Shown here: one piece after another, positions 22,156 through 63,438 of the stretch
Layout of the letters: the number at the start of each line of letters is the position of its first letter
Position numbering within the stretch: the stretch's first letter is position 1
Assembly (NCBI GenBank): GCA_963576735.1
Contig: OY755198.1
Span: 9,534,535-9,598,534 of the forward strand
Direction of reading: 5' to 3'
DNA length: 64,000 nt
Origin: Bedellia somnulentella
Taxonomy: Eukaryota; Arthropoda; Insecta; Lepidoptera; Bedelliidae
Translations under genes and position numbers: made by a program
Notes under the pieces: generated by a model
What the model saw: only the letters and a program-made list of their open reading frames with translations
Database searches by the model: none
Told to the model about the DNA's origin: nothing

Positions 22156-22191
22156 TATATAACGAAAAAGATTCAACCATAAGTCATCAGT
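22156..22191 (+). promoter_or_regulatory. Core promoter of silk-like gene A
   Basis: A TATATAA box lies at 22156-22162 and a TCAGT arthropod initiator at 22187-22191. The putative +1 A at 22189 is 33 nt from the start of the TATA box. The TATA-to-initiator spacing is within 1 nt of that in the three paralogues. A further shared element, AATATTTTTGTT, sits upstream at 22071-22082. The role is inferred from conservation among paralogues and standard core-promoter geometry. Confidence 0.75.
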
Positions 22192-22218
22192 TCATTGCCT
22201 CAGCGTGAAATAGAAAAA
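22189..22218 (+). other. Non-coding exon 1 of gene A
   Basis: This is a 30-nt leader from the predicted initiator to a GTAAGC donor at 22219. It begins with the sequence TCAGTTCATTGCCTC, which is also found in gene D. Intron 1 (22219-24838) contains degraded RTE pieces, MITE-E, a 3 x 139-bp tandem repeat and a SINE-B. Confidence 0.65.
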
Positions 22219-22397
22219 GTAAGCTCAGTTTTTTAATAGTTTTGGTTAAAGAAATGTTATATACGACTGGTGTTTTGGTGTGGTGAAATCGGTTATTTTT
22301 GACGATAAAAAGTGATTTGGCAGTGATTTTGAGGTATCGAAATTTGGACGTTTTAAAGAATCTTTTAGATTTCTTGGAAATAAGTAAAAGTTAAGAT

Positions 22398-22490
22398 GGT
22401 TACGGTGATGTGATTGAAGAAAGGAAGGATGATAGTGAGTTGGTTAAAGAGATTGATGTAGGTAAAGTCAAAATTGATGGTAATCTAAAT
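22398..22490 (+). pseudogene. Degraded RTE coding remnant in gene A intron 1
   Basis: Reads DVIEERKDDSELVKEIDVGKV, similar to RMDDSKLVKEIYRANV of the RTE ORF. A second remnant of the same ORF lies at about 23088-23210. Both are badly mutated. Confidence 0.4.
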
Positions 22491-22674
22491 AAAATACCAC
22501 CATAGGGACACTATTTAGATCATAATGAGATTGTGCTAAAAACTGGACATTTACCAGGAGCATCAAGAGTTTTATCAGGGTTGCAAAAAATTCAAAATTA
22601 CATTAAGTTTTTTGTCCCGAATAAAGTACTAGATGCAAAGATTTTTGAAGTAATTATAATTGTGAAAAGACTAA

Positions 22675-22812
22675 CGCCCGATTTCTGAATTGAGTATTTC
22701 AGCTGAGAATAACTTAAGTATCGTTCTGTCGCATTGAAATCTTAACAACTGAATGAGACAAAACGATACTTAAGTCGTTCTCAGCTTGAATATTCAATTC
22801 AGAAATCGGGCG
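22675..22812. mobile_element. MITE-E palindrome, 138 bp, gene A intron 1
   Basis: The arms span most of the element: CGCCCGATTTCTGAATTGAG pairs with TTCAATTCAGAAATCGGGCG, with further pairing through CTTAAGTATCG. TAA flanks both ends. The copy at 49149 is the same length in inverted orientation. Confidence 0.75.
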
Positions 22813-23666
22813 TAAATCAGTTTTTTCGTTCGCTGCCTGAATTAAAATTTTGCTGAATACTTTTTATGTAAGTTACTTTAGTGGAAAATAGGGATTAGGT
22901 ATTTGTATATAGAATATAGTCTTCATGATAATTCAGGTTATTCTATGATGTTGTCTCAATATTTTGTTAAATTATATTTATGATATAGTTTGTTGCATAA
23001 AAGATGTGTTGTGAATTTATTTGGAGATACAAAATTGTAAATATAGCAAAAGTGGACTGTATTATTATTAGAAAACGTTAAAACAAGAAGCTTAAAGGCA
23101 AAAGTTCGAAGTCAGAGGAATAAAAGCGGATGTGTGAAAAGAATAATGAATCTGAAGGAAGGACGATAGAATTGGCAGGATTGTACAAAGTAGCTATTGA
23201 TATTACATGCCAGCCCGGCTAGTACGAGCGGTGTTTAAACTAGTTATCGCGTGGGATAAAGCAGCCATCTCTTATGCACTTACTTAGTATCGTATACTGC
23301 CATCTCATTCTAACCGTTATCGTGTCGATAAAATAGCGCTCGTGCTTGCCCTTCTCCAGTGTCCCTATAGTAGATAATGGCTAAAGTATGAGTAAATGTA
23401 AAGTAAGGCGTATTTTACCACGTTTCCATTCGGTGTCCGTTCTGTAAGTATACATAATCTTCGGTTATCTAAGATTATAATTCAGGATTACGTTTCATTA
23501 AATCACCAACCGTTTCTAATAAGTTTACCTTTGGTTATAACTTCATTCATTTTCTTGAGATTACACATTATGCAAGTATGACTTGCGTAAGACTTTTCAA
23601 TGATAATAATCAACAATTTCAGCAGTTTAGTTGGAAAGAAAGACGCGCTGTTAAAGCGTGAGAAGT

Positions 23667-24083
23667 CGTTTTTTATTCGATGCACAGAAACTGCGCACAA
23701 AAAAAAAGGTCACGTTACTTAAACGAGAGTATGGAATAAGCGTTTAAGCGCCATCTAGTGAGTGATATATAAACTTCCTCTTCTTCTATTTTCGTTTCGT
23801 ATCTTCGTTTTTTATTCGATGCACAGAAACTGCGCACACAAAAAAAGGTCACGTTACTTAAACGAGAGTATGGAATAAGCGTTTAAGCGCCATCTAGTGA
23901 GTGATATATAAACTTCCTCTTCTTCTATTTTCGTTTCGTATCTTCGTTTTTTATTCGATGCACAGAAACTGCGCACACAAAAAAAGGTCACGTTACTTAA
24001 ACGAGAGTATGGAATAAGCGTTTAAGCGCCATCTAGTAAGGGATATGTAAACTTCCTCTTCTTCTATTTTTCTTAGTGGTTTT
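23667..24083 (+). repeat. Three tandem 139-bp repeats in gene A intron 1
   Basis: The unit starts CGTTTTTTATTCGATGCACAG at 23667, 23806 and 23945. It includes AAGCGCCATCTAGTGAG and a pyrimidine run (CTTCCTCTTCTTCTATTTTC). Units 1 and 2 are almost identical and unit 3 has a few changes. No coding. Confidence 0.85.
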
Positions 24084-24202
24084 TATCATGATGCCACGCA
24101 TATGTACACTGTGCTCCTGAGTTGTGTTGATAATAACAATGATGATGACAACAACGTTCTCTTTTGGAACGAGTAAATAGGTTAAAATTATATTTAGTAA
24201 AA

Positions 24203-24638
24203 TAACATAACATAACATAAACGTTCACGCCGTTTATCCCCGAAGGGGTTGGCAAAGGTACCAATACTTCTGAACTCACATGGCAGCGCCATCTAGTGTC
24301 CAGAGAAGGTACCCACATTTTGCTTGGACAGTGTACTCACGTGATAGGGGGCAGGCCTATCGCCGTTTTGTACGAATACACTGTCACATGACTAAGTACA
24401 ACTCAGCCATGTGGGTTTCCTCACGATAGTATTTTCTAAGATTTTCACGATTGCACATTATAATTGAAACAACTATTGATTTTCCTCACGATGTTTTCCC
24501 TCACCGTTACCAATTATGATAAATTAACCACACATATGACTTTAGAAAAGACAAATTGGTGTAGGCCCGACCCAGGATTGGAACTCACGCCCTTCTGTTT
24601 ACGGGCGGGTGTTCTACCCATTGGACTATCATGTCGTC
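24203..24638 (-). mobile_element. SINE-B with internal insertion, gene A intron 1
   Basis: Full-length copy with about 50 extra bases at 24428-24480 between two CCTCACGAT repeats. Confidence 0.7.
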
Positions 24639-24880
24639 ATTTTAGTAAAATGTTTTGATAAATATCATTTTAAATGTGGCAGAAAATGACAGAGATGCAC
24701 AAGTGATTATCGAGAGTCTACCGATAATTTAATGAAATAGTTTTATTTTATAATGTTTGTATGATTTTATTGTCCCTTCATTTCAAATATGTGAACTAAT
24801 AAATATATCAATAAAGGTTGTATTTATCCCTGTTTCAGTATTTTCACGGCTGCCGTTAGAAGAGGTGTGAGCAGAAATAC

Positions 24881-24889
24881 ATGTATTAA
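24881..24889 (+). other. Minimal upstream ORF (Met-Tyr-stop) in gene A leader
   Basis: ATG TAT TAA occurs in exon 2, 35 nt before the main ATG. It is absent from the aligned leaders of genes B, C and D. A start-stop element this short can modestly lower downstream initiation, but there is no evidence here that it acts. Confidence 0.35.
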
Positions 24890-24915
24890 TTTATTTATTT
24901 AAATAGTCACCCGCC

Positions 24916-27900
24916 ATGGGATATATCAGTTTGATCTCTTGTAAGTACTATTTTTACTAGATTTTTAAAGTTATACATACATGCAGATTATTTAAACCTT
25001 GAAGTAAGCAATATAATTACTTGTGCGCTGAGAGATACTAACGCAAAGGCATAAATTTAATTATCTCTAAGTTTTTTACTACTAAAGAGCTTATTCCATT
25101 ACACTTTGTCGTTGCTGAATTCAGACGTCCTTCGAAGTTACTGCCGCAGACGCTTGTTATTCCACTACACAAATTTCAGTTTGAACGTTATTCCACTAGT
25201 CTGAATTCAGATTCTGTGGCTTTCAGATGTCTTCATTCAGACAAATGGAATAAGCTCTTTAACGTAACGTAACTTTTGAGAGAGAAAAAACATCTTTGTT
25301 GAAAATTTTGCTTAACTATTTACTTCTCCTTACCTGAAATCTCTAATAGGGATTATAATGGTTTGTCTTATCAAATGATTGAAATTTTGTTAAATCCTTT
25401 GGATCACTTTCTTTTATCCCATCGTTTAGATTCACATTAATTATCTTTCAATGAACAGCACACACTGTTTATCAGTGTTGCCTTGTTTTTCTTTTAAAGT
25501 ATACCTAATTGATCAGTGATTTCAGTTTTATTGTTTGAAACCTCACAATTGCCATCAAGTTATCTAAAATAATAAATATCCTTCTTTGTTAATTTAGCTG
25601 TGTAGTGTCGGCTTAGAATAGCACTACCCCATTTCTTCCGGTGGGTGTACGTAAGAGGCGACTAACGGTATTGGGGCTTTTAAGGGATTTTTGGGCGATG
25701 CGGTTAGAGACCCATCACCAACAACCTTTATTTCACCATTTTTTCCCCACGCAAATTCCAAAAGTGGCTGAGAAATTTCTGATTCCTCAGCTCTGGCTAC
25801 CTGATTTATAGCTGTGAGTATATGTATATGTTTGTTAATATAAAGAGATTAAAATGTCAAAGAGGATTAGATGCTAGTTTTTTGCCTCTTAAATAATATT
25901 AAATTATCTTATCCTTTTCAGGCTTTTTGGCAATTCTAGCTGCTACCATATGCTGTCCGCCGCCACGCGTAAGTAACGAATATTTTTTTCTTGTAATTTT
26001 TTATGTTAAGTTTCTATGAATCGGATTCTATTTGAAATTGTTAAAGTAAAAAAACAAGTTTTCAATTACATTTTTTAATCTACCTTCCGTGTTTGGTCTT
26101 TTCTTCAAGTCTGTATTACTTTAACTAGAAAAGTTCCGCTCGAACCGTATATTCAATGTATAGCCTATTCTGGATTTTATTATTTAAAATTAGAGAAAAA
26201 CTAAATGAACAAGTCAGTACTAAATTTAAGATTTCATTTGAAAATTATCCAAAGGTTACTGCAGAGGTACAATGGGTTGGGTGATATTTTAAAAGACAAT
26301 CGTGTGTCAGATTTAATAAATACTTCAAATGGTCTGTCCCGGAAAAAAATATTAATGTAAACAAGTATTTATATCAAGATATAGGTACATTATGCTGTCT
26401 ATCCAGTATCGAAGGATAAAAATAGTTTTAATCTTCAAGACATCTATTCTTTTCTCTTCAGGACCCGTGCAGCCCTTGTCATACTCCTGTAGTTCCATGC
26501 GCTCAGCCATGCCAAAAAGTTATACAAGTTATCCTTCTAAACGGATGTGAATCAGAATTACAGCAACTTATGCAAGAACTCAGCTGGTCTAACTCGAAGG
26601 ATGTTGCTGTAGCGTTCTACAATTTCAACGGTGGTGTTAATTTCTTGGGTAACATCGTCACAGGCTACTGGGATCTTCTTCAAAGACTTAATGACCATGA
26701 CTTCTTCTTTACGATCGATTCGGAAGGAGAGTACAATACAATGGTCGTCACTAAAGTAGGAAATCAACAGAGTATAGATTCAATGATTCATATTGTTAGA
26801 GGATTATCTAACGGTATGAATAGTGCGTCTGTCTTTTACGGAACTTCTCCTAGCTATATGTCAAGTTCTACGGGCGGTTCTGGTGGGACAAGAATTGTGT
26901 ATGCATCTCAACCATCAGGGAACGGATTTAGTTCAGCTGGAGGTTTTGGTTACAATATCGTTGGAAATGGTCAAAATATCAACAGTGCACAGTCAGCTCC
27001 TTGGTGGTCGAGTAATGGTGGATCAGGATTTAATATTCAATCGCAACCAACAGTTTCTTTAGTTTACCAACAACCGAGTGGATACTCTGGATCTACCGGC
27101 TATGGAGGATTCAACGGATATATTGGGCGCGGTGGATCATCAAATTTCGTTGGCGGAGGTGGATCGACTGGATTTATTGGGGGCGGTGGATCCACTGGAT
27201 TTATGGGAGGTGGTGGTTCTACTGGATTCATTCAACGTGGTGGATCATCTGGTTACTTAAACGGGGGCGGTTCTTCCAATTACATAAATGGTGGTAGCCA
27301 AAATGGTTACTTCGGAGGCGGTTCAACCGGATATTCCGGACTTGGTTATGGGGGTAGTAGTGGAATAAATAGATTCTCTGGGGGACTAGGCTACCTAGGT
27401 GGCGGGGGGTCGTCTGGTTACATGAGTGGTGGTGGTTCAACTGGATATATTGGTGGTGGTGGATCTGGTTATGGAAGTGGAACTTTCAACGGCTACATGG
27501 GTGGTGGTGGAATCACCAACTTCATGAGAGGCGGTGGATCGACCAATTATATTGGAGGAGGAGGGTCAAGCGGTTTTGGAGGTATTGGGTTAGGTGGCTA
27601 CTCGAGTGGACTAAGTAATTTTAGAGGTGGATCTTTAGGATATTTGAGCAGTAGTGGATCGTCTACAGGAGGAGGCTTTAATAGTCTTTTGGGAGGATCA
27701 GGTTATGTAGGAGGCGGATCTACCGGCTATGTTGGCGGTGGTGGGTCCACTGGTTATTTAAGAGGAGGTCTGGGAGGATATGGTTCAATGAGCAACGGTG
27801 GATTAACGTACTTAGGAGGTGGAGGTTCTACGGGGTACATAAACGGTGGTGTTTCATCGAACATCCTTAGAAGTGGTGGGTCCACTGGCTTTTCTGGCTC

Positions 27901-30781
27901 AGGAGGTTACGGTGGTAGTTTAGGTGGTTTCTCAGGAGGGCTAGGTCGCTGGGGTGGTGGTTTGAGTTCCATCGGTGGTGGAGGAATTGATAGGTACTCT
28001 AGTGGTCTAAATTACCTGGGTGGTGGTGGGTCTACGGGATACTTAGGTGGCGGTGGTTCAACCAGTTACATTGGAAGAGGATCAAGTGGTATTTCTGGAT
28101 TAGGAGGACTTGGATATGGCGGTGGGATAGGAGGATATTCAGGGGGTCTTAGCTACCTTAACGGTGGTGGATCTACCGGGTATTTAGGTGGTGGTGGTTT
28201 ATCTAACTTAATCGGTGGTAGTGGATCATCAAATTATATTGGCGGAGGAGGTTCAAGTGGGTTCTCTGGGCTGAGTGGACAAGGTAACATTGGAATAGGT
28301 GGCTACTCAGGCGGTCTTGGTTATCTAGGTGGTGGTGGTTCGACCAACTTCATAGGCGGCAGTGGATACTTTGGAGGAAGAGGATCAAGTGGGTTTTCTG
28401 GGCAAAAAGGACTTAGTAATATTGGACTAGGAGGCTACTCAGGTGGTCTTAGTTATCTAGGCGGTGGATCTGTTGGATATCTAAGCGGTGGTGGATCAAC
28501 AGGTTACTTAAGGGGAGGTGGCCAAACAGGTTTCTCCGGCCTTGGAGGACTTGGATATGGTGGAGCATCAACTGGTTACCTTAATGGTGGTGGATCTTCT
28601 AGTTTTATTGGTGGTGGTGGATCCACAGGTTATTCTGGACTTGGTGAATTAAGTTATCTAGGAGGGGGAATTTTGGGTGGTTATTCATCAGGCTTTGGTG
28701 GTGGATCCACAGGTTTCTCAGGTCTTAGTGGGTCAGGTTACATGGGAGGAGGCGGTTTAGGTGGTTATTCATCAGGCTTAGGTGGTTACTCAGGGGGACT
28801 TAGATACTTAAGCGGTGGTGGATCCACAGGCTACTCAGGACTTGGTGGATTAGGTTATTTAGGAGGGGGAGGTTCTAGTGGATATTCATCAGGATACGGT
28901 GGTTACTCAGGAGGGCTTGGATATCTAGGTGGTGGTGGATCCACAGGCTACTCAGGACTTGGTGAGTTGGGTTATATAGGAGGTAGCTCAGGTGGTTATT
29001 CATCAGGCTTAGGTGGTTACTCAGGGGGACTTAGATACTTAAGCGGTGGTGGATCCACAGGCTACTCAGGACTTGGTGGATTAGGTTATTTAGGAGGGGG
29101 AGGTTCTAGTGGATATTCATCAGGATACGGTGGTTACTCAGGAGGGCTTGGATATCTAGGTGGTGGTGGATCCACAGGCTACTCAGGACTTGGTGAGTTG
29201 GGTTATATAGGAGGTAGCTCAGGTGGTTATTCATCAGGTTTAGGTGGTAACTCAGGAGGACTTAGATACTTAAATAGTGGCGGATCCACAGGCTTCTCAG
29301 GACTTGGTGGGTCGAGTTATATAGGAGGAGGGGGCTTAGGGGGTTATTCATCAGGGTTAGGTGGTTACTCAGGGGGACTAAGATACTTAAGCAGTGGTGG
29401 ATCCACAGACTTCTCAGGTCTTGGCGGGTCGGGTTATATAGGAAGGAGAGGTTCTAGTGGATATTCATCAGGATACGGTGGTTACTTAGGAGGGCTTGGA
29501 AATCTAGGTAGTGGTGGATCCACAGGCTACTCAGGACTTGGTGGGTTGGGTTATATAGGAGGGGGTGGTTCAGGTGGTTATTCATCAGGCTTAGGTGGTT
29601 ACTCAGGAGGACTTAGATACTTAAGTGGTGGTGGATCCACAGGCTTCTCAGGTCTTGGTGGGTCGGGTTATTTAGTAGGGGGAGGTTCTCGTGGATATTC
29701 ATCAGGATATGGTGGTTTCTCAGGAAGAGTCGGTGGATCCACAGGCTACTCAGGGCTTGGTGGGTCAGATTATTTAGGAGGGGGAGGTTCTACTGGATAT
29801 TCATCAGGATTCGGTGGTTATTCCGGAGGACTTGGATATCTAAATGGTGGTGGATCCACAGGCTACTCAGGGCTAAGTGGACTGAGTTGTTTAGGAGGAG
29901 GAAGTTCACTTGGTGGTTGTGGATGCTCAGGAGGAAGTGGATCGACTGGTTATAGTTGTGGATGTGGTTCCAGTTATCCCAGTTGCGGTTGCGAATCAGC
30001 TAATTATTGGAACCAAGTGATGCCTTGTACAGAAACTATCTATATTCAACCAAGTTGCAGTTGCCCAGAACCCATAATTCCAGAACCTATTATCCCAGAC
30101 CCTTGTTACGTCCAACCCCAAGTAGTAATTTCTCCACCACCCCAACCCCCAGTTTTGTGGACAAACGTTATTGAATCTGAACAATTTTGTGTTCCTCAAC
30201 AAGTTGAATTTGTACCGGATCCTATTATTGTAGAACAACCAAATTATATCCCACAACCGTGCTATTGTATGAATCCTTCACCCATTATTTCCTATACCAT
30301 GCAGCCTCAACCAGACCCTTGTTATACCCCTCCTATTTATGATCCAGCTCCTAATTTTGGATGTAATTGCGGCTCACACGGATGCTCTGATAGTAGTCAA
30401 ATATCAGTCCTTTCACCTCTACCCTCATTCCCATTCTATGATTGCTTAAAACAAAATTCTGCTGCTTCAGGATGCGACAATTTCATCATTGTCAATACTG
30501 AATACCCAGGTCTATACCTAAAAGCATTTTATAATACCAACAAGGTTTTAAGACTGAAAACGTCCTATGAGATCGATGAAGTTTTGACGCTAAATTTTAT
30601 TCCTGTTGTAGAGAATAATGGTTATAATGTTCAATATTTTGAAGACTTAGCTAAGCAATATGTAGCTAAATACTTCGAAGAGCCAGTAGTACTAAGAGAA
30701 CCTACTACAGAAACCGTTTTAGTAGACTATGGCACTAATTTTAACAGCAAAGTTATTCTCTGGCCAATAACTATGTGTTAA
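24916..30781 (+). CDS. Silk-like gene A: large glycine-rich secreted structural protein
   Basis: The CDS has three coding exons: 24916-24940 (exon 2, which starts at 24839 after a TTTCAG acceptor), 25922-25968 (47 nt) and 26462-30781. All junctions are GT-AG and the phases join cleanly, giving 1463 aa. The start codon lies in the strong context CCGCCATGG. Residues 1-19 form a hydrophobic signal peptide (MGYISLISC then FLAILAAT). Residues 20-41 are Cys/Pro-rich. Residues 43-150 form a non-repetitive N-domain with conserved motifs LNGCESEL, FYNFNGG, FLGNIVTGYW and LNDHDFFF. Residues of about 160-1165 are Gly/Ser/Tyr repeats of the GGGGSTGYSGLGGLGYLG type, with almost no Ala or charged residues. 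Residues of about 1166-1347 are Cys/Pro-rich with CGC and CSCPEP motifs. Residues 1348-1463 form a C-domain (PFYDCLKQN, GLYLKAFYNTNKVL, FEDLAKQYVAKYFEEP). Terminal domains around a repetitive core resemble silk proteins in design, but I see no homology to a named silk family. An extracellular fibre, glue or coat role is inferred. Confidence 0.9.
25597..25838 (+). mobile_element. SINE-A1 in gene A intron 2
   Basis: Sense orientation. It ends CTGTGAGTATATGTATATG, 83 bp before the exon 3 acceptor. Confidence 0.75.
28761..29222 (+). repeat. Perfect 231-bp tandem duplication inside the gene A repeat region
   Basis: Units 28761-28991 and 28992-29222 read as identical at DNA level. The period of 231 nt (77 codons) keeps the frame. 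Each unit holds two higher-order blocks, one with YSSGLGGYSGGLRYL and one with YSSGYGGYSGGLGYL. Diverged versions of the same blocks continue to about 29870. Identity including silent sites points to recent unequal exchange or gene conversion. Confidence 0.9.
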
Positions 30782-33763: not shown

Positions 33764-36348
33764 CCCTTTCCCTCCTTACGGTACTTATAAGTACCACCTT
33801 CTTTTTCGTCTATCAGATTGAATATGAAAACATTTTGTGCTTTTGCTTTCTGACGATCCTTTAGAGTACCGTTTGCGTAAGCCAATCACAGCGCGCTATT
33901 TGAATTACCGCGAGAAATTGCCGAGTGATTGGAGCAGCAAGTTACAACACGTTGAAGATTCAGTCACTTCGCTGTGCGGTGTTCTAATAAAAGTTTTAAA
34001 AATTGATTATCATAGGTAAGTGCCAATGTTTTTGATAACTTAGCATGGATATATCATCAATGATGCGACTAACAACTTAGAAGATGTGTAACTACGCTAT
34101 TACACATGAATTATTGTCAAAAACTAACGAGGACTACAAAGTACCGTCAGGCAATTTTAGTATCACTGTTTCGTCAGACAATTAAAATTTTCAAGGGGGG
34201 TATTTGGCTGTTACGTCTTAGTATTTTTTTTACTTTATTTTTTTTAATTCTGTTGTACTTCTTTTTGTTTCAGATGTTTTAAAATGGACATTTCAAGTAA
34301 TAAGGCCCTAATTGAAGCCTTGTTATTAGAAGAACTTCCGGAATGTAACGAAGACTCTGATGCAGGTGTTTCCGACGAAGAGATCGAGGAAACTGCTCCA
34401 CCGCCCTCACCAAGAGGCTTTGATGAGGTTTTTGAGGATGCTTTAGACAGAGTTTTGAGCGAAATTCAAGATGCCCCATTACCCACATCTCCAATAACTA
34501 ACTCTAGTGTTGAGATTGACATTCCAACAGCAAATACGGATATCTCTAGAACTAGCCGGCAACAGAGGGTTGTTGAACCAAACCGGAAATGGAAAAAGCG
34601 ACAGTGACAAACAATTTTACCCGAATACGTTGCAGACACTGGAGTAGTAGAAGATATTTTTGCTCACTGTACTAAGCCGACTGACATATTTCTGGTACTG
34701 ATTCAGGATATCTTGGATAATATTGTATACCAAAGTAATCTTTACGCTACCCAAAATGGAAAGGTGTTGAACCTAAAAAAGGAGGAACTCTTAACATTTA
34801 TTGGTATAAATTTCTTCATGGCTTATAATACTCGACCGGCGTGGAGAGACCATTACTCTTCAGCATCTGATCTCAACAATCCGCTCATAGCCAAAACAAT
34901 GCCGAGAGATAGATTCGGTCTCATTCTATCCTATCTACATTGCAATGATAATGCTAAAATGCCTAAAGACTGCAAAGATAAGCTGTATAAAATCAGACCA
35001 ATGATCGATGCACTCAACAAAAAATTTCAAGAAGCTTATCATGGTACTCGCGAGGTGAGCGTCGATGAGTCTATGATTAAATTTAAGGGTAGGTCGGTCT
35101 TGAAACAATATCTTCCGATGAAACCAATAAAAAGGGGTTACAAGTTGTGGTGCCTGGCCGACCAGAGGGGATACATAAAGAAATTTCAAATTTATCAAGG
35201 AAAAGACGAGGAAATGAACACGAAGTTTACAAACTATGGCTTGGGAGAAAAAGTCGTTTTAGAGTTGACGGAACAAGAGTGGGGTAAAGGAAAGATTGTC
35301 TATTTTGACAACTTTTTCTCGTCTGTTGCTCTACTTGAAAAACTGAAAACTGAAAATACGTTGGCGTGTGGCACAATCCGAAGCAACAGAAAAGGGCTAC
35401 CCGGAAACATGCTCGCTGATTCTCAAATGAAAAGAGGTGAAAGTGACCATCGATTTTCCAATTTAGATATTGGGTATTGGAAATGGAAGGATAACAAAAT
35501 GGTTCATATAGTGTCCAATTTTCATGGGAGCGAAGAGGGAACTGTGTCACGAAAAGAAAAGAATGGATCAAAGTCCACAGTAAAATGTCCTGCAGCGGTC
35601 AAGGATTATAACAGTTACATGGGTGGCGTTGACACAGCCGATCGTTTGAGAGCCCTTTACTGTATAGACCGGAAATCTCCAAAATGGTGGCACAGATTAT
35701 TTTGGGGTCTTTTGGACTTAGCATTTGTAAATGCTTTTGTCATTCACGGACTCTTGATGGAAAAAAGTACAGTAAAAGATTTTCGACGGTCCGTGACTCA
35801 AGGTTTGATGACAATGAAAGATGCTGGTCAAAAAAGAAAGACCTCAACTGAAAACGCTTCTAAGGGTGGTCCTTCAAAACGGCGCAAATCTGATTTCTCT
35901 ACTCTGAAAGACGTACGATTGGGTAACAGAGGCATACATTGGCCTACGTTTGTGGATAACAGAGGGAGGTGTGAAGTCTGTAGTTTGAAGAAGATTCAGT
36001 CGAAACCTCACAGCAAATGTTCCCATTGCAATGTTTTTTTGTGTGTAAATGAAAAAAAAAATTGTTTCCTAGAATACCACGACGTCAATGATTGATTTTA
36101 AGTATGTTTTTTGATTAATACTTGTTAAAATTTAGATCTCATTAGTTTTGTATTTTTTACTGAAGTTCCTAACATTGTGATTACCTAAAGTTCCTGACGG
36201 TACTTTTAAGTCTAGGTATTATAAATAATACTTCTAGGTATAATAAAAATCTAAAAAAAATCGGTGCTTTTCTATTTACCTACCCTATTAATAAAATACA
36301 GTTAAAGTGAGAAAATTCGTAAATAATCCATACCCCGGAGGGAAAGGG
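33764..36348 (+). mobile_element. piggyBac-like transposon, 2585 bp, with TTAA target duplication
   Basis: Inverted ends CCCTTTCCCTCC and GGAGGGAAAGGG, flanked exactly by TTAA (33760-33763 and 36349-36352). A subterminal GTACTTATAAGTAC palindrome lies near the left end and a GACGGTACTTTTAAG-like copy near the right. It carries one transposase gene. Confidence 0.9.
34284..36095 (+). pseudogene. piggyBac transposase with one in-frame TGA
   Basis: A 603-codon frame broken only by TGA at 34605-34607 (codon 108). The N-terminus is acidic (ELPECNEDSDAGVSDEEIEE). The core has the expected Asp residues in VSVDESMIKF, IVYFDNFFSS and MGGVDTADRLRALY, with KRGYKLWCLAD and WWHRLFWGLLDLA. The C-terminus has a Cys-rich RING/PHD-like domain (CEVCSLKKIQSKPHSKCSHC). 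The larger part after the stop (from about 34713) is intact, so the element is recently disabled or the stop sits before a usable internal start. Host function (domestication) is not suggested, because the element ends are still present. Confidence 0.9.
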
Positions 36349-40298: not shown

Positions 40299-40334
40299 TA
40301 TATAAGGGAACAGTTTTGACAATTTAACATCAGT
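40299..40334 (+). promoter_or_regulatory. Core promoter of silk-like gene B
   Basis: TATATAA lies at 40299-40305 and TCAGT at 40330-40334, with a predicted +1 A at 40332, again 33 nt from the TATA start. AATATTTTTGTT at 40214-40225 ends 74 nt before the TATA box, the same spacing as in gene A. Confidence 0.7.
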
Positions 40335-40360
40335 ACATCTCTTTAACTAGAAAGACAAAA
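40332..40360 (+). other. Non-coding exon 1 of gene B
   Basis: This 29-nt leader ends at a GTAAGT donor at 40361. Intron 1 (40361-41067) is largely two SINE-A copies, both also present in gene C. Confidence 0.6.
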
Positions 40361-41129: not shown

Positions 41130-43625
41130 ATGACATATTTAAGTTTGGTCTCTTGTAAGTATTAAAATATGACACTTTATTACCTTTCTTAGAATGCATG
41201 TATAAAAATAACCCGAAATCAGATGAAAAATTAGAGATTGTATTAGATATTAACTAAATGATAAAGTAAATAAAAATACACATATAAATCACATCACAAA
41301 AAATCTTAGCCGTTTTGATAAAAGTAAAGTTTTGTACACACTTAAAGAAATCAAATTTGGATCCACCTAAACTTCTGTTATAGTGATTGCAGACTAAATC
41401 ATTATACAATGAAATACAGATTTGCTTTTTTACAGGCTTTTTCGCAATATTAGCAACAACAGCTTGTTTACCGACGCCATGCGTAAGTATCAAAATTTAT
41501 TGTACATCTATACTTATAATACATCTGTAGAGAGGTCAATTCTGTACATGAAATATATTTTCGAAAAATCTATCAGTGGGTGATTAGTGATCGATACTAG
41601 TAAAATTTTTGTCTGTCTGTCTTTCGTTTGTATGTTCCTTATGGAAACAAAAAGAACTCGACAGATTTCAACGAAACTTGGCATAATTATTCTTCATACT
41701 CCTAGGCAGGTTCTTGTATACTTTTCAGCAGAGTAGTGAAGGGGAATTTCGGGAAATTTTGGGAAAACGGGAGAAGTTACTCTATTTTCAAGCTTCAGTC
41801 ACGTGTACTGCCTTCATGGTTATAGTTACATAGAAATCATGTATGACGGCAATATTCTTTATAAAATTGTCTAAAAAAAATCCCGCAACAGTATATGTCT
41901 ATCTTTTATGGTTGACTCACAATAACACGTGTAACTCCTGATAGTCTGGCAGTCTATAGTAATCTGGCATAACCTGTCAAGATTGCAGATACATACAGAC
42001 ATCAATATTTTAATAATGACTTTTTATAAATTATATTTTTCATGCCTGTTTTTACGTGCTCATTTTCTATATAAGCTCCTTTTATTGACATTACCATCAT
42101 TTATTTCATTTATTTCACTTTCATTTATTGTTCATTACACAAACCATCTTGCCATTCCTTTTTCTATCATTTTTACAAAACTATCTTGCTCACCGCACCT
42201 TTCACGAATCTCACTATTTCTCAATTCATCACGTCAACCTGAGATTTTTTGTCTTTCCATTTAATTAATTTACCCATAAAGCAAACTTTTAGACTGTCTT
42301 AGTAGCAAATTAAACTCATATTTCATACTATTACATTTGAGGTTACAAAATTAGTTATCTTTCCATGTATGAAGTCAAAAATGTAATAAATATCTATAAG
42401 ACATATCCTTTCTTTACAGGACCCGAGCAGCCCTTGTCACACTCCAGTCATACCATGCGCCCAGCCATGCCAAGAACATATACAAGTCATATTTCTGAAC
42501 GGTTGTGAATCAGAATTACATCAACTAAAACAAGACCTAAGTTTGTCTAATTCTAAGGATGTTTCTGTAGCTTTCTATAATTTCAACGGTGTTGCAAATT
42601 TCTTGGGCAACATCGTCACAGGTTACTGGGATCTCCTGAGAATACTTAATGATCATGATTTATTCTTCATCATCGATTCAGACCATGAGGTTACTACTAT
42701 AGTCGTCACTAAATCACACAATCAACACGATATTAATTCGATAATAAGTTTCGTTAGAGGTTTATCTCACAATGATATTAATGCAGCTGTCTTTTACGAA
42801 ACTTCTCCAAGATTTAGTACAACATCTAATGGTGGTTCTTCTGGTTACATAAATGGTGGCAGATCATCAAACTTTATCACTGGTGGCAGACCATTGGAAC
42901 TTCTAAGAGGATCACCTCTCCATCCAACGGGATCTACTAGATATATTAACAGAGGAGGATTAAGAGACCTTTCTGAAACTGGAAGACTTGGCTGCATTGG
43001 CAGCGATGGATTAAGTTACCTTGAAGGCAGAGGTTCCACTGGCTATTTGAGTGATGAAGGTGCAGCTAACTTCATAACTGCTCATGGATCATCTGGACAT
43101 ACTAGAGGTGGAGGCTTGAATGGAATAAGATGCCATGGTTATGTTGATACTGCTGAATTAGGTAAACCTTCTCGTTATTTAAGTGATTCACCAAACTTCG
43201 TGAGAGGTGGTGAATTAATTGGCCATAATGGAGGAGATGGCTCTAATGGTTACTCTAGTCTTAAAGGAGTAAGATATATTGGTGGTTTCGATGGTTACCC
43301 AGAAGGATTAGGGTACTTAAGCAGCTCTGGATCCAGTGGCTACCCAAGACTAAGTGGACACTCAGGAAGAGGTCCAATCAGTTACATAGATAATTATAGA
43401 AACGATGGTAGAAGAAATCACGGTTATAATGGTAATTTGAGAGGATCACTTGATTTCCGAAACCAATTTGTGCCTACTTCAGAAAATGAAAAATTTAAAC
43501 CAAGTTGCATACATTGCCCAAAGCCTATCGTTTCACAATCTTGCCACGGCATACATCCATGCCCCGCCACTCATTATTGGGTTGAACCTCAACCAGAACC
43601 CGTTCATTCCCATTGTAGAGAATAA
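41130..43625 (+). CDS. Silk-like gene B: truncated paralogue without C-domain
   Basis: Exons are 41068-41154 (coding from 41130), 41436-41482 (47 nt) and 42420-43625, giving 425 aa. In-frame ATGs at 41121 and 41124 could add three residues. The signal peptide (MTYLSLVSC then FFAILATTA) and Cys/Pro stretch are followed by an N-domain retaining FYNFNG, FLGNIVTGYW and LNDHDLFFIID. The Gly-rich region is much shorter and degenerate, with many Arg, Asp, Glu and His residues (ETGRLGCIGSDGLSYLEGRG). It ends in a short Cys/Pro segment and HSHCRE. The TAA at 43623 arises because the C-domain sequence that follows (VENNG..FQDLAK) is out of frame after a deletion. It could be a working short secreted protein or a gene in decay. 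Confidence 0.75.
41508..41962 (+). mobile_element. Helitron fragment in gene B intron 3
   Basis: Typical lepidopteran Helitron sequence: TCTATACTTATAATACATCT, TTTTTGTCTGTCTGTCTTTCG, GTATATGTCTATCTTTTATGG. It is absent from intron 3 of gene C, so it arrived after the B/C duplication. The 3' CTRR end was not found. Confidence 0.65.
41965..42245 (-). mobile_element. RTE LINE fragment, degraded, gene B intron 3
   Basis: Minus-strand match to the RNDVIRERCG..RKIEKGM region. The same fragment, longer, is at 51048-51425 in gene C. Confidence 0.5.
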
Positions 43626-43942
43626 TGGTCGTTATGTCCAATGCTTTCAAGACCTTGCTAAGAATACATCGCTAAATATATTTAAGATCTACTTGTACTG
43701 AAGAAACCTACAGCGCAATACACACTAAGCCCGCCGGGCTGCCGACATTGCCCGGTGACACTACCCGGCAGACTATGTTGAAAGAATTATGTCTAACCTA
43801 TGTATGAAAACTAGACCACTAACAAAAAGTTGCCGACATATGTCGACGGCCTGGCGGGCTCAGTGTGTATTGTGCTTACCAATGACTCTGTTTTGGTAGA
43901 TAATGTTACTAATTTGAACTGCAAAGTTATTCTCTGTAACAT
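43626..43942 (+). pseudogene. Decayed C-domain of gene B, split by MITE-D
   Basis: Sequence after the gene B stop matches the end of the gene A and D C-domain in the wrong frame: a VENNGRYVQCFQDLAK-like stretch, then a lost base, then a GAAACCTAC site holding MITE-D, then a remnant of the LVDYGTNFNSKVIL block at about 43889-43938. The first half of the C-domain (the PFYDCLKQN to FIPV region) is deleted. Confidence 0.75.
43712..43876. mobile_element. MITE-D, 165 bp, in gene B C-domain remnant
   Basis: The terminal inverted repeats begin AGCGCAATACACAC and end GTGTGTATTGTGCT, followed inside by a GC-rich GAGCCCGCCGGGC/GCCTGGCGGGCTC pair. It is flanked by TAC on both sides (43709-43711 and 43877-43879), consistent with a 3-bp target-site duplication. 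Confidence 0.75.
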
Positions 43943-48253: not shown

Positions 48254-48289
48254 TATATAAGGGAACAGTTTTGACAGTTTAACATCAGT
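48254..48289 (+). promoter_or_regulatory. Core promoter of silk-like gene C
   Basis: TATATAA lies at 48254-48260 and TCAGT at 48285-48289, with a predicted +1 at 48287. AATATTTTTGTT at 48169-48180 ends 74 nt before the TATA box. The upstream sequence from about 48066 is nearly identical to gene B from about 40108. Confidence 0.7.
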
Positions 48290-48315
48290 ACATCTCTTTA
48301 ACTGGAAAGACAAAG
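48287..48315 (+). other. Non-coding exon 1 of gene C
   Basis: This leader is almost identical to that of gene B and ends at a GTAAGT donor at 48316. Intron 1 (48316-50158) holds the two SINE-A copies shared with gene B plus about 1.2 kb of sequence unique to gene C. Confidence 0.6.
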
Positions 48316-50219: not shown

Positions 50220-52739
50220 ATGAGATATTTAAGTTTAGTCTCTTGTGAGTATTAAAATATGTCACTTTTTTACCTTTCTTAGAATTTATGTATAAAAATA
50301 TCTCAAAAGTCAGATGAAAAATTAAGAGGTGGTATTAGATATAGGTGATAATATAGTAAATTTAACATATACATCACAACATAAAATAATCCTACCCATT
50401 TTGATAAAAGTAAAATTTTGTAAAGACTTAATAGTCCATGCGACATGATAGTCCAATGGGTAGAACACCCGCCCGAAAACAGAAGGGCATGAGTTCCAAT
50501 CCTGGGACGGGCCTACACCAATTTGTCTTTTCTAAAGTCATACGTGTGGTTAATTTATCATAGTTGCTAACGGTGAGGGAAAACATCGTGAGGAAACCCA
50601 CATGGCTGAGTTGTACTTAGTCATGTGACAGTGTATTCGTTCAAAACGGCGATAGGCCTGCCCCCTATCACGTGAGTACACTGTCTACGCAAAACGTGGG
50701 TACCTTCTCTGGAAACTAGATGGCGCTAGCCATGTGAGTTCAGGAGTATTGGTACCTCTGCCAACCCCTTCGGGGATAAACGGCGTGAACGTTTATGTTA
50801 TGTTATGTTACTTAAGTAATGAAAATAAATTTCGATTGCCGTTATAGGGGTGAAACACTAAGTTATATGAAATACAATTTTGTCTTTTTACAGGCTTTTT
50901 AGCAATATTAGCAACAACAGCTTGTTCACCGACGCTATGCGTAAGTATCAAAATTTATTGTACATTAACAATGTAATATATATTCTTCGTGTGCACGCTT
51001 AACTGAGATAACACTTTATGTGTACAAACATTCATTTTATACTCAAAGTATGGGGTAGTCAGAGGCTATCGACTGCAACTTTGAACAAATCTGGCATACC
51101 CTCTCAAGATATATTTGCATACATAAATATTTTAATAATGGCCCTTTATTTCTTGTACTTTCTATGCCTGCCTTTTTGTGCACTGTTTCTAAATGATCTA
51201 AATGTTTCCTCCTGATCGTCTTCTGTTGACATTACCATATTTTTTTGATTTATATGTCCTTTTCGACAATTTATTTTATTTATATTTATTTACATTTAGT
51301 TTATGGGCACAAACTATTTTACCGTTATTTTTTCTATCATTTTTACAATACTATCTTGCGCAACGCACCTTTTACAAATCTCACTATTTCTCAATTCATC
51401 ACGTCAACCTGAGATTGTATGTCTTTCCATTTAATGAATTTAACATTAAAGCAAACTTTTGCACTGTCTTAGTGGCGAATTAAACTAGAAAAAATAGCAA
51501 CCGGCTCTCATATTTCATATTACATTTGAGGTTACATAATCAGTTATCTTTCCATGTATGAAGTCAAAACTGTAATAAGTATCTATAGGACATATCTTTT
51601 TTTTACAGGACCCGTGCAGCCCTTGTCACACTCCTGTCATACCATGCGCCCAGCCATGCCAAAAACATATACAAGTCATCTTTGTGAACGGATGTGAATC
51701 AGAATTACATCAACTAATCCAAGAACTAAGTTTGTCTAATTCTAAGGATGTTTCTGTAGCTTTCTATAATTTCAACGGTGGTGCAAATTTCTTGGGCAAC
51801 ATCGTCACAGGTGACTGGGATCTCCTGAGAATACTTAATGATCATGATTTATTCTTCATCATCGATTCAGACCACGAGGTTACTACTTTAGTCGTCACTA
51901 AATCACACAATCAACACGATATTAATTCGATAATAAATTTCGTTAGAGGTTTATCTAACAATAATATTAATGCAGCTGTCTTTTACGGAACTTCTCCTAG
52001 ATTTAGTTCAACATCTAATGGTGGTTCTTTTGGTCACATAAATGGTGGCAGATCATCAAATTTTATCAGTGGTTGCAGATCGTTGGACCTTCTAAGAGGA
52101 TCACCTCTCCATCCATCGGGATCTACTGGATATATTAACAGAGGTGGATTAAGAGACCTTTCTGAAACTGGAAGACTTGGCTACATTGGCAGCGATAGAT
52201 TAAGTTACCTTGAAGGCAGAGGTTCCACTGGCTATTTGAGTGATGAAGGTGCAGCTAATTTCATAACTGCTCATGGATCATCTGGACATACTAGAGGTGG
52301 AGGCTTGAATGGAATAAGAGGCCTTGGTTATATTGATACTGCTGAATTAGGTAAACCTTCTCGTCATATAAGTGATTCACCAAACTTCGTAAGAGGTGGT
52401 GAATTATTTGGCCATAATGGAGAAGATGGCTCAAGTGGTTTCCCTAGTCTTAAAGGAGTAGGATATATTGGTGGTTTCGATGGTTACCCAGAAGGATTAG
52501 GGTACTTAAGCAGCTCTGGATCCAGTGGCTACCCAAGACTAAGTGGACACTCAGGAAGAGGTCCAATCAGTTACATAGATAATTATAGAAACGATGGTAG
52601 GAGAAATCACGGTTATAATGGTAATTTGAGAGGATCATTTGATTTCCGAAACCAATTTGTGCCTACTTCAGAAAATGACAAATTTAAACCAAGTTGTATA
52701 CATTGCCCAGTGCCCATAGTTTCTCAATCTTGCCACTGA
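50220..52739 (+). CDS. Silk-like gene C: truncated paralogue, sister of gene B
   Basis: Exons are 50159-50244 (coding from 50220), 50894-50940 (47 nt) and 51609-52739, giving 400 aa. The donor after exon 2 is GTGAGT rather than GTAAGT. The signal peptide (MRYLSLVSC then FLAILATTA), Cys/Pro stretch, N-domain and degenerate Gly-rich region match gene B closely. The frame ends at TGA after IVSQSCH. Gene B reads CACGGCATAC here and gene C reads CACTGATAC, so a one-base loss plus a substitution removes a further tail of about 26 residues. The N-domain remains open, so a shortened secreted product is possible. Confidence 0.75.
50440..50811 (+). mobile_element. SINE-B, full length, gene C intron 2
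   Basis: Sense copy, very similar to 39451-39824. The matching intron of gene B lacks it. Confidence 0.8.
51048..51425 (-). mobile_element. RTE LINE fragment, degraded, gene C intron 3
   Basis: Matches GGGTAGTCAGAGGCTATCGA and following on the minus strand. It includes the part replaced by the Helitron in gene B. Confidence 0.55.
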
Positions 52740-53130
52740 TACATCCATGCCCCGCCACTGATTTTTGGGTTGAACCTCTACCAGAACCCGTTCATTGCAA
52801 ATGTAGAGGATAATGGTGGTAATGTCCAATACTTTCAAGACCTTGCTAAGAATACATCGCCAAATATTTCAAAGATCTACTGGTACTGGAGAAACCTACA
52901 GCGCAATACACACTGAGCCCGCCGGGCTGCCGACATTGCCCGGTGACACTACCCGGCAGACTATGTTGAAAGAATTATGTCTAACTTATGTATGAAAACT
53001 AGACCACTAACAAAAAGTTGCCGACATATGTCGACGGCCTGGCGGGCTCAGTGTGTATTGTGCTTACGAATGACTCTGTTTTGGTAGATAATGTTACTAA
53101 TTTGAACTGCAAAGTTATTCTCTATCCCAT
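52740..53130 (+). pseudogene. Decayed C-domain of gene C, split by MITE-D
   Basis: The sequence aligns to the gene B remnant: a Cys/Pro tail out of frame, a VEDNGGNVQYFQDLAK-like piece, MITE-D, then the LVDxxTNLNCKVIL block. The deletion and the MITE position are the same as in gene B, so the C-domain loss predates the B/C duplication. Confidence 0.75.
52900..53064. mobile_element. MITE-D, 165 bp, in gene C C-domain remnant
   Basis: It has the same length, ends and flanking TAC as the gene B copy. Its left inner arm reads CACTGAGCCC, which pairs better with the right arm than the CACTAAGCCC of gene B. Confidence 0.75.
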
Positions 53131-53390
53131 TGTTTGGTGATAAACCAACAATGACAATTATTTTACTTTTGTACGAATAGAACTAATGGACACAATACTA
53201 AAGACAAAAATATGTACAAATATGTTTTATGGTAATCAAACTGCATTACAGTAAAACTTTCTTTACTTGGTTATCAGTATGTTTTCTTCTCAATTACAAT
53301 ATTGAATGTAGAATACTGAGTAGTTTTTATATTTATATTTATTTATTCTTATAGCATTTAAAAATGTATTTAGAATATCATGTATATTTT

Positions 53391-59295: not shown

Positions 59296-59330
59296 TATAT
59301 AAGGTTAGAGTTTGGACGATTGTCATCAGT
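59296..59330 (+). promoter_or_regulatory. Core promoter of silk-like gene D
   Basis: TATATAA lies at 59296-59302 and TCAGT at 59326-59330, with a predicted +1 A at 59328. The AATATTTTTGTT element is at 59205-59216, 80 nt before the TATA box. Confidence 0.7.
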
Positions 59331-59354
59331 TCATTGCCTCCGCTGAAATATAAA
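59328..59354 (+). other. Non-coding exon 1 of gene D
   Basis: A 27-nt leader (TCAGTTCATTGCCTCC..) runs to a GTAAGT donor at 59355, closest to that of gene A. Intron 1 (59355-60343) contains two SINE-A copies. Confidence 0.6.
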
Positions 59355-59618: not shown

Positions 59619-59688
59619 TAAATTAGTAACCCAGTTTTTCTAAGAATCTTCTCTTTTGCCGTGTGTTTTCAGCCTATTGCAGTATTGA

Positions 59689-59936
59689 GCTGTGCAGGCT
59701 TAGAATAGCACTACTCCGTTTCTTCCGATGTGTGTACGTAAGAGGCAACTAACGGTATTGGGGCTTTTAGGGGATTTTTGGGCGATTTTGTTCGAGACCC
59801 ATCACACACAGCCTTTACTTTACCATCATTTCCCCACTCAATTTTCCAAAAGTGGCTGAGGAATTTCTAATTCCTTAGCTCTGGCTACCCCTTCTAGAGA
59901 TTTATAGCCTTGAGTATATGTATGTATGTATGTGTG
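59689..59936 (+). mobile_element. SINE-A1, gene D intron 1
   Basis: Full-length sense copy with a 3-bp gap in the head (GCTGTGCAGGC). Confidence 0.72.
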
Positions 59937-60420
59937 TTGCAGCCTAGAAAATCAACACTCCTTTACTTCCCACGGGAATTGTAAAAGGTGACAGAGATAT
60001 TAACAGTAAATGGGCAGTAGCATTACTGCAACAATACTGACATGTGATGTTCAGATGTGTTAGTATTATTTATTATGTATATTTGAATATTGAGTAAAAA
60101 GTCAAGTTTTTTTTTTAATATTTCACGAAATTTAAAAAGGCGAAGGCATGGTTTACCATAAAGCTAAAGTATATAAAGTTACTTTTTGAATGTCGGTTTA
60201 TTTTTTCTTTGCTATCTCCTACATAATTATTTTATAAATTGCCAGGAACTTTTAAATTTTGAAACCACTGCCAGTTAACCATTTTTTTTGTTGTTTCTCC
60301 ACTATAACAACTTTAAATAATAAACATATGTTTTCTGTTTTAGTATTCCAAAAGCTGCCTAGGGAGGAGTGTGACCAAACATTATTTTTATAAATCAAAC
60401 CATTCTCATAGTCATTCGCC

Positions 60421-63240
60421 ATGGGATACAGCAGTGTGGTCTTGTGTAAGTATTTTGCTTTCTTTAACAATAGTTATTTTGTATACGTTTTAACTCTATT
60501 AATTGCAGGTTTACAAAGGATCTCTTATTAAAAAAGTCAAGGAAGCAATTTTTAAAATAAACGCACATACCCACGGCTGTAAATCCCTAGAAGGGGTAGC
60601 CAGAGCTAAGGAATTAGAAATCCCTCAGCCACTTTTGGAAATGTGAGTGGGGAAAAGATGGTGAAATAAAGGTTGTTGGTGATGGGTCTCCAACCGCATC
60701 TCCCAAAAATCCCTTAAAAGCCCCAATACCGTTAGTCGCCTCTTACGTACACCCACCGAAAGAAATGGGGTAGTGCTATTCTAAGCCGACACTACACAGC
60801 GTTTTTAAATATCTTTTTAGTAAATCTCTTACCAAGTTCAATGTGTCCCATGTATACACACATACATACATACATATACTCACGCCGTTAATTCCCATTG
60901 GGGTAGGCAGAGACTATCTATCGCCACTTCGTGCGATCCTGGCAAACCTCTCTTGCTTCGTCTACATCCATCAATATTTTCATACATGCTCTTTTATTCT
61001 TCATACTTCGGACACCTGCCTTTTTCCCATGAATATTAAATATTATTTAATTTCTTTTTAGGTTTACTGGCAATAATAGCTACTACTATAAGTTCACCGA
61101 CGCCGTGCGTAAGTATCGATGTTTTTCTCTGTTTAAAATTTTACTCTTTTAATTTGACAAAGTAACTATTTAAATTTCATTGATATAGTGTTTACTGCTT
61201 TCTACTCCTAGTATTGTATTGTGAAATATTCCGTACTGCAACATTAACATTTTGCCGCGACACGTTACGGGGAAATAATTTTGTGAAAGTAGCGGATACA
61301 TTGTATTATATTAATTAACTTGAAAATAACCCAAAAGACAAGCAACAGCGCTTTAGTTCATAAAGTACTGTAGGGGTCTAAAATATTAAACAATTCTGCA
61401 AATAAATAAATTATCGTTTATTTGTTACCGTCCTTACAGCGAACGAAACCAAAAAATAAATAAAGAATAAATAAAGGAAAGAAAAATTTCGACACAGGCG
61501 GGGATCGAACCCGCGACCTCGGGTGGACGCCCCGACGCTCTTCACCCGAGGTCGCGGGTTCGATCCCCGCCTGTGTCGAAATTTTTCTTTCCTTTATTTA
61601 TTCTTTATTTATTAGTAATAATCCCCACATGAGGTTTTCATGAACAAAAAGATTAAAATTACGAAACCAAAAAAGATCGGGTAAATGTCTAAAGAGATTC
61701 ATTTTGGGACTAAGTAACAAAAACATGAGAAATCCAGTTCCCTAAACGGCTTTATTATATATGTGTCAATCCATTATATTTCTATCCACAGAACCCAAGC
61801 AGACCCCACATCACTCCGGCCACACCTTGCACCCAGCCCTGCCACAGACCTGTAAAAGTTATTCTTCTTAATGGAATTGAAACAGAATTACCTCAACTGA
61901 TTCAAGAATTAAGTTGCTCTCATTCAAAAGATGTTGCTGTAAGCTTCTACAGTTACAACGGTGGTGCTAATTTCTTGGGCAACATCGTCACAGGTTACTG
62001 GGAACTCCTGAGAACACTTAATGACCATGATTTCTTCTTCACTATCGATTCAGACCACAAGTTTACTACCGTGGTCGTCACTAAATTATGTAATCAACAC
62101 AATATAGATTCGATTATAAGTTCCGTTAGAGGTTTATCTAACAATGTCAATAGTGCATCTGTCTTTTACAGAACTTCTCCTAGATTTATTTCAACATCTA
62201 ATGGTGGTTCTTTCGGTCACGTAAATGGGGATGGATCAACAAACTTTATCAGTGGTGGCAGGTCGTTGAACTTTTTAAGTGGCGGTGGATCTACTGGATA
62301 TATTGGAGGAGATGGATCAAGTGGCTTCTCTGGTATAAGAGGACTTGGCTACATTGACAGCGGTTTAGGTTACCTAGAAAGCAGAGGTTCCGCCAGCTAT
62401 CTAAACGGTGGAGTACCATCTAATTACATAAACGGTGGTGGGTCTATTGGATATATTAATGGAAGAGGATCGAGCGACCTCTCCGGTTACCCACAAGTAG
62501 GATATGTTGGAGGGATTGGAGATGCTGGATACTCTGGGAGACTTGGTTACCTTGGGAGTGGACCTTCGGCTTTTGTCAGCGATGGTGGTTGTTCTAGACA
62601 TGGCAGCTCAAACGAAGTTGGAAGACTTGGTTGCCTTGGGAGAGGTGGATTAAGTTACCTAGAAGGCAGAGGTTCCAATGGCTATTTAAGTGGTAGATAT
62701 TCAGCTAATTTCATAAGTGGTGGTGGATCATCTGGTTATATTAGAGGTGGAGGCCAAAGCGGCTTTGGAGACACAAACAGCTATTTTGACGGCAGCCACA
62801 TAGCCGTTCTTACACCGTCACCATCATTCCCATTCTATGATTGTTTAAAACAAAATTCTGCACCAACATCAGGCTGCGACAATTTCATTATTGTCAATAC
62901 CAACCACCCCGGTCTATACCTGAAAGCTTTTTATAACACCAACAAGGTTTTAAGACAAAAAACGTCATATGAGGTCGATGAAGTTCTAACTCTCAACTTC
63001 ATTCCCGTTGTAAAGAGTAATGGTCACAATGTCCAACATTTTGAAGACCTCGCAAAGCAGTACGTCGCGAGACATTTCGAAGAACCTGTGGTGCTGAGAA
63101 ATCCATCTACTGACATCGTTCTGGTAGACCATGGTACCAATTTCAACAGCAAAGTCGTTCTCTGGCCTGTTACTTGCGTTAAATCGCCAATGAATAATTG
63201 TCTGCCTGCATGCAAACAACACATATGGAAGTTGTATTAA
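60421..63240 (+). CDS. Silk-like gene D: short form with intact C-domain
   Basis: Exons are 60344-60445 (coding from 60421), 61062-61108 (47 nt) and 61792-63240, giving 506 aa. The signal peptide is MGYSSVVLC then LLAIIATT. The Cys/Pro stretch has fewer Cys than gene A. The N-domain keeps FLGNIVTGYWELL and LNDHDFFFTIDSD. A Gly-rich region of only about 210 residues (GGGSTGYIGGDGSSGFSG type, mixed with Asp, Arg and Ser) leads directly into a C-domain from about residue 371 (PFYDCLKQN, GLYLKAFYNTNKVL, FEDLAKQYVARHFEEP, TNFNSKVVLWPVTC). About 20 extra residues with two more Cys follow. The Cys/Pro linker of gene A is missing. It is the only paralogue besides A with a complete C-domain, so it is the most likely of the other three to be fully functional. 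Confidence 0.87.
60563..60800 (-). mobile_element. SINE-A1, gene D intron 2
   Basis: Full-length inverted copy ending GCTGTGTAGTGTCGGC on the minus strand; the tail is reduced to GTATGTGCG. Confidence 0.74.
60860..61025 (-). mobile_element. RTE LINE 3'-terminal fragment, gene D intron 2
   Basis: (CATA)n tail, then the minus-strand end of the RTE ORF up to CACCTGCCTTTTT. Its inner end lies about 35 bp before the exon 3 acceptor. Confidence 0.72.
61457..61660. mobile_element. SINE-C hairpin insertion, gene D intron 3
   Basis: Two inverted arms of about 58 bp (through AATTTCGACACAGGCGGGG and CCCCGCCTGTGTCGAAATT) surround a loop of about 20 nt. A 14-bp duplication ACGAAACCAAAAAA lies at 61443-61456 and 61661-61674. 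Confidence 0.75.
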
Positions 63241-63432
63241 AAACAAAAATAGTTCTAGATTGTTTTACAAGAAACAAACTCCTTGAATGTGAAACTTCCT
63301 ATACTTATAATAAGCTATTTATTTTCTTCTAAGTTATTTTTTTTATGTCAAAAATGTATTAGTTTCGTATTTATTTTAATTTATTACCACATTATTTATT
63401 TGTTTCGCACAGCATGATAAAGAACTAAAATT

Positions 63433-63438
63433 AATAAA
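63433..63438 (+). terminator. Candidate polyadenylation signal of gene D
   Basis: AATAAA in TTAATAAACTGAATTAACC lies 193 nt past the stop codon in an AT-rich region. The extent of 63241-63580 otherwise shows only this 3' UTR-like sequence. Confidence 0.55.

Follow-up and report, generated by a model that had tools for sequence, protein, structure and literature searches.

Which proteins are encoded by the four related genes that lie in tandem in this stretch of the Bedellia somnulentella genome, and do they belong to any family already named? The stretch, hereafter the window, comprises 64,000 nucleotides of contig OY755198.1 (assembly GCA_963576735.1, positions 9,534,535 to 9,598,534 of the forward strand), and positions below are counted from its first letter. 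An earlier examination of the letters, the sequence-only reading, had proposed that four plus-strand genes between 22156 and 63438 encode silk-like secreted proteins sharing one gene plan. We give about even chances to the interpretation that these genes, called A to D, encode lineage-restricted secreted structural proteins of a matrix or fibre, made in an exocrine gland (silk/labial or accessory) of this lepidopteran. Their predicted architecture is of the silk type, and they fall outside the families of silk, chorion and cuticle proteins against which they were tested.

Four genes with common promoters and exons

The four paralogues were found as related stop-to-stop open reading frames, all on the plus strand, and full models were built from shared upstream blocks revealed by comparing the four loci. 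The spliced models, together with a similarity within the window far beyond chance, confirm the four genes and give proteins of 1463 (A), 425 (B), 400 (C) and 506 (D) amino acids. The proposed limits of the cluster are also right: 22156 falls at the TATA box of A, and 63438 is the last base of the AATAAA that follows D, a candidate poly(A) signal (63433–63438). Alignment of the four promoters revealed a common TATATAA box and CATCAGT initiator, separated from TATA box to transcription start site (TSS) by 33, 33, 33 and 32 bp in A, B, C and D. In each gene exon 1 is non-coding and intron 1 opens with a GTAAG donor (4 of 4); the acceptor of this intron, before TATT, is a candidate only. Exon 2 brings the start codon and contributes eight codons and one base, exon 3 encodes the remainder of a putative signal peptide, and exon 4 is a single large exon. 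The borders of introns 2 and 3 are GT..AG, and their phases (1 and 0, respectively) are identical across the four genes.

In A, the TATA box, the initiator and exon 1 occupy 22156–22218, with the TSS at about 22189 and a GTAAGC donor following the exon. Exon 2 has a candidate start at 24839, and its coding part (24916–24940) ends with the first base of a Cys codon, before a GTAAGT donor. Exon 3 lies at 25922–25968, and exon 4 (26462–30781) encodes a Cys/Pro stretch, an N-terminal domain (N-domain), a Gly/Ser core, a Cys/Pro linker and a C-terminal domain (C-domain) that runs to the stop. The promoter with exon 1, the coding part of exon 2, exon 3 and exon 4 are at 40299–40360, 41130–41154, 41436–41482 and 42420–43625 in B, at 48254–48315, 50220–50244 (with a GTGAGT donor), 50894–50940 and 51609–52739 in C, and at 59296–59354, 60421–60445, 61062–61108 and 61792–63240 in D. 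Exon 4 of B and C encodes an N-domain, a degenerate core and a truncated end, and that of D an N-domain, a short core and a C-domain (62794 on). The shared plan is as described for the promoter, the exons and the N-domain, present in all four genes, but four full genes of one plan is not accurate: B and C are truncated, and a long repeat core is confined to A. Intron 1 of A also holds, at 23666–24070, 2.9 copies of a 139-bp unit that are 98% alike.

Conserved ends and a variable core

The Cys/Pro stretch and N-domain of A (residues 25–155, 26462–26854) are 70%, 73% and 66% identical to those of B, C and D, and a search within the window matched the N-domain of A to the other three with E values of 1e-59 to 2e-66. 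As the sequence-only reading had stated, a C-domain is found in two genes: that of A (30395–30778) is 81% identical to that of D (E 3e-70, within the window), which has about 19 extra C-terminal residues. The motifs it had listed, such as LNGCESEL in the N-domain and PFYDCLKQN in the C-domain, are present. The two domains are unrelated to each other (profile comparison, probability 0.5%). Pairwise ratios of non-synonymous to synonymous substitution (dN/dS, by Nei-Gojobori) for the N-domain are 0.29 (A-B), 0.30 (A-C) and 0.34 (A-D) relative to A, and 0.47 (B-D), 0.50 (C-D) and 0.63 (B-C) among the others; for the C-domain of A and D, dN/dS is 0.12 at a dS of 0.93. On these ratios, selection has preserved the two ends of A and D, the C-domain most of all. 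Synonymous distances suggest that A branched off first and D next, with the split between B and C coming last.

The core of A (26864–29911) has 1016 residues, of which 42.5% are Gly, 18.7% Ser and 9.3% Tyr, with the strongest periodicity at 39 residues. Tandem copies (8.9) of a 117-bp unit make up 34% of this core, and across the core the motif GGGS[TS][GN][YF] occurs 28 times, against a mean of 0.18 in shuffled sequences. In B, C and D the core, of about 200 residues, is degenerate and lacks regular repeats; the three can be aligned with one another, and GGGS[TS] is found in them 0, 0 and 2 times. One likely history is that a short ancestral core was later expanded in A; alternatively, a long core may have decayed in B, C and D. 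Of the 29 cysteines of A, 21 are located at residue 1167 or beyond, and a single one lies within the core. The Cys/Pro-rich linker (29912–30394) includes several CXC motifs, the last of them at residues 1325–1327 of 1463, ahead of the C-domain.

No N-glycosylation sequon occurs in any of the four proteins when every Asn after residue 19 is scanned (0 of 63, 27, 29 and 37 Asn in A, B, C and D, for shuffle means of 11.7, 3.9, 4.4 and 5.9). For whole proteins, nearly all of 2000 shuffles contained more sequons (fraction with no more than the observed count, 0 to 0.015); taken singly, the five domains tested showed no significant depletion (0.12 to 0.24). It could perhaps reflect selection against glycosylation of an assembling protein, or perhaps be a by-product of repeats and shared ancestry.

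The C-terminal truncation of B and C, where the stop comes earlier in C than in B, has left pieces of the C-domain in both (43603–43934 and 52791–53131). Both remnants are disrupted by a one-base frame change and an insertion, and since these lesions are common to B and C, the damage is older than their separation. The insertion (within 43706–43905, and at about 52916–53065 after C) has ends that by eye resemble inverted repeats, as in a small transposon. The coding parts of B and C diverge by 4.9% and have 0 gaps in 1126 aligned bases; four other stretches (the promoter with exon 1, the exon 3 region, part of intron 3 and downstream sequence) have 7 gaps in 1349 aligned bases, at an uneven rate, as 5 of the 7 are in intron 3. 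In a neutral simulation of 3000 runs, both frames remained free of stops in 17, 11 and 8% of cases at 4, 5 and 6% divergence. The gap-free and stop-free coding part points to some constraint, and is suggestive only. The B-C dN/dS, of 0.63 in the N-domain and 0.78 in the rest, is indistinguishable from neutral (Fisher p 0.40 and 0.43, with approximate site counts).

Known families and rival explanations

Could A to D be divergent members of a known family? Pfam returned 0 families for the four whole proteins at E values up to 1, and scans with the separate domains gave two matches (E 0.042 and 0.048) that are below the cut-offs and neither of which is a silk family. No NCBIfam family reached its cut-off (best E 0.051). 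PDB sequence searches with both domains gave weak matches only (best E 0.085), and those with the N-domain, as a single sequence and as a profile, had no silk chain among matches up to E 10. We also searched 5.8 billion database proteins, using a single length class per domain: 0 of 71 candidates matched the N-domain of D (class of 278–885 residues) and 0 of 112 the C-domain of A (805–2560 residues) at E up to 1, in a search whose sensitivity is limited by word-sharing and which may omit records very near this genome. In a control search with the piggyBac-type transposase frame of the window, 618 of 6598 candidates matched at E up to 0.001. Several butterflies and moths are named among the best 120 of these 618, so insects are represented in the database; they are also the best named matches, which agrees with a lepidopteran origin of the window, although transposons can pass from one species to another. 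This control shows that lepidopteran proteins are present, without showing how fully, and transposons are easily matched. Among viral contigs, 39 and 41 stretches fitted a pattern and none was a relative. Six motif strings of the family had no match in the literature searched, a weak test because sequences are often placed in figures or supplements. The clear HMM match to a named family that would have refuted the sequence-only reading did not occur, and its suggestion that the family may be undescribed holds as far as all these searches reach.

The N-terminal domain of fibroin heavy chain (FibH), a product of the posterior silk gland that is joined by disulfide to a light chain, has a solved structure, and FibH and spidroins consist of a signal peptide, a non-repetitive N-terminal part, a long low-complexity core and a non-repetitive C-terminal part with cysteines. 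This plan is found in full in A and with a short degenerate core in D; B and C fall short of it, their C-domain being gone. The proposal of a structural-protein family with terminal domains around a repetitive core hence fits the sequence, with the reservation that two of the four members are truncated. A to D also resemble FibH genes in that their coding sequence begins in a short exon and includes a single very large one; in the gene description given by PMC9684489, exon 1 of Yponomeuta FibH encodes 10 signal-peptide residues. Unlike them, they form a four-gene cluster and have no sequence match to FibH or spidroins in Pfam or PDB, and A has 1463 residues, whereas the same description gives 5753 for the second exon of Yponomeuta H-Fib. 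We rejected a fibroin heavy chain, for which the PDB searches gave no N-domain homology and which would have an Ala/Gly beta-crystalline core, and a spidroin, as no Pfam spidroin terminal domain is found in A to D.

Sericins and silk-coating proteins, as presented in part of PMC9745057, are likewise encoded by clustered, recently duplicated, secreted repetitive genes, and CXC motifs are present in the linker of A. Unlike in sericins, the core is Gly-rich, not Ser-rich, and the last CXC of A precedes the C-domain; the passage of PMC9684489 on Ser1 recognises this protein by CXCY close to its C-terminus. A sericin was discarded for lack of Ser-rich repeats, of CXCY near the C-terminus of A and of CXC at the end of D, and a zonadhesin-like silk protein for lack of a TIL or EGF domain (no Pfam family). 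Valine-rich midgut proteins (VMP) are, like A to D, secreted, low-complexity, multigene and lepidopteran-specific, but the portion of PMC3843731 describing them reports Val/Pro-rich (Val 19–31%), Cys-poor proteins of 16.4–28.8 kDa with the motif (S/A)PLVQIIV(N/K), and the Gly/Ser-rich composition and the cysteines of A to D rule them out. A Zygaena defence-droplet peptide (Trp plus eleven Gly) was considered and dismissed.

Control of assembly by terminal domains is a main idea in silk biology. If A to D are secreted structural proteins of an exocrine gland, their terminal domains would hold the protein in solution during storage and initiate its ordered assembly, the chains would be cross-linked through disulfides formed by cysteines of the Cys/Pro stretch, of the linker and of the C-domain (two), and the flexible core of GGGSTGY type would yield an extensible matrix or fibre. 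The principal long chain would come from A, whose core presumably grew in part by tandem duplication of the 117-bp unit, and D would be a short two-domain form. One ancestor of B and C would have lost the C-domain and then duplicated, and the two genes may today be decaying or making short chains with the N-domain only. A further proposal, more tentative and in our view somewhat doubtful, is that the cluster represents a lineage-restricted class of silk or glue protein that evolved separately from fibroin, sericin and spidroin, has two globular assembly domains peculiar to it, and varies among its members in chain length and in the presence of the C-domain. If this were true, such a separately evolved pair of terminal domains in Lepidoptera would put to the test whether this architecture is a product of convergence, and the genes would serve as natural variants in length and domain content for comparison. 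The family may also bear on unidentified moth silk proteins, such as the five 'completely unknown' ones noted in Pseudoips prasinana silk in a section of PMC8347419.

Several points weigh against a structural role of this kind. The starts of the proteins are hydrophobic and signal-peptide-like, split over two short exons, and this putative call was made by eye. Gly-rich secreted proteins occur also in cuticle and other matrices. The core of D is degenerate, and that of A contains 0 AA and 1 GA dipeptides in 1016 residues, which makes it unlike the Ala/Gly beta-crystalline fibroins. The fold predictions suggested by the sequence-only reading were run and gave poor AlphaFold2 models (mean predicted local distance difference test, pLDDT, 53 for the N-domain from 4 sequences and 43 for the C-domain from 2). 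A Foldseek search with the weak N-domain model gave 573 matches within E 10, of which none had an E of 0.001 or less. Among the best 50 of the 573, the top ranks are repeatedly taken by methyltransferases of RsmI and tetrapyrrole type (best E 0.012, TM-score by query at most 0.47), and DNA polymerases and designed proteins are represented as well. An N-domain of methyltransferase-like fold, if real, would look like an enzyme; given the low confidence of the model, we keep this as a lead that would speak against a purely structural role and do not use it as evidence.

Among the rival explanations, the one that survives best, and that we still regard as unlikely, is an unclassified Gly-rich or 'hypothetical' cuticular family (CPG or CPH type) made by epidermis, scale or trachea cells. 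The Gly-rich core and the secreted start agree with it. CPH proteins have no defining motif, so sequence cannot speak against them. CPG proteins are Gly-rich secreted structural proteins of Lepidoptera, as A to D would be, and in the part of PMC10138643 devoted to them are reported so far only from this order and without a highly conserved domain. Unlike them, A and D have two conserved, Cys-bearing terminal domains, and the core of A is poor in GGxGG (7, shuffle mean 32.8) and has one GGYGG (shuffle mean 2.9, a difference of untested significance); neither motif occurs in B, C or D. We rejected a CPG protein for want of multiple GGYGG/GGxGG repeats, a judgement by motif counts, and a CPR or CPAP protein since Pfam found no RR domain and no CBM14 or other chitin-binding domain.

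A reproductive or egg secretion, either egg glue of the accessory gland or a component of the eggshell, is less probable still. Secreted proteins that are rich in Gly, Ser and Tyr and contain cysteines would be suitable as an adhesive, sequence cannot tell glands apart, and the three papers found on egg glue concern, by title, louse nits and a leaf insect. Against an eggshell protein, chorion genes lie in divergent pairs, whereas these genes form one same-strand array, and the absence of a Pfam chorion domain led us to reject a chorion protein. The least probable explanation, that the family formerly functioned and is now largely in decay, with B and C dead and A and D recently lost, agrees with the lost C-domains, the neutral-like B-C dN/dS and the degenerate core of D, but is opposed by the constraint on the A-D C-domain, by the frames of A and D, open throughout, and, suggestively only, by the gap-free B/C coding part with frames seldom stop-free in neutral runs.

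Surrounding sequence

The open piggyBac-type transposase frame lies between A and B at 34608–36095 (plus strand), encodes 495 amino acids and is up to 88% identical to database proteins among the matches listed. One annotated relative, from Danaus chrysippus (P0006), contains PF00352 as an additional Pfam domain and bears the name TATA box-binding protein-like 1. Positions 1–22000 contain chiefly transposon-like frames, with no clear host gene recognised by eye among 43 open reading frames of at least 75 amino acids; these include reverse transcriptase frames at 7760–8827 and 13129–14928 and a mariner-like frame at 9854–10660, all named by eye. In the same transposon-rich left part of the window, a 108-bp unit occurs twice at 12486–12702, with 99% matches.

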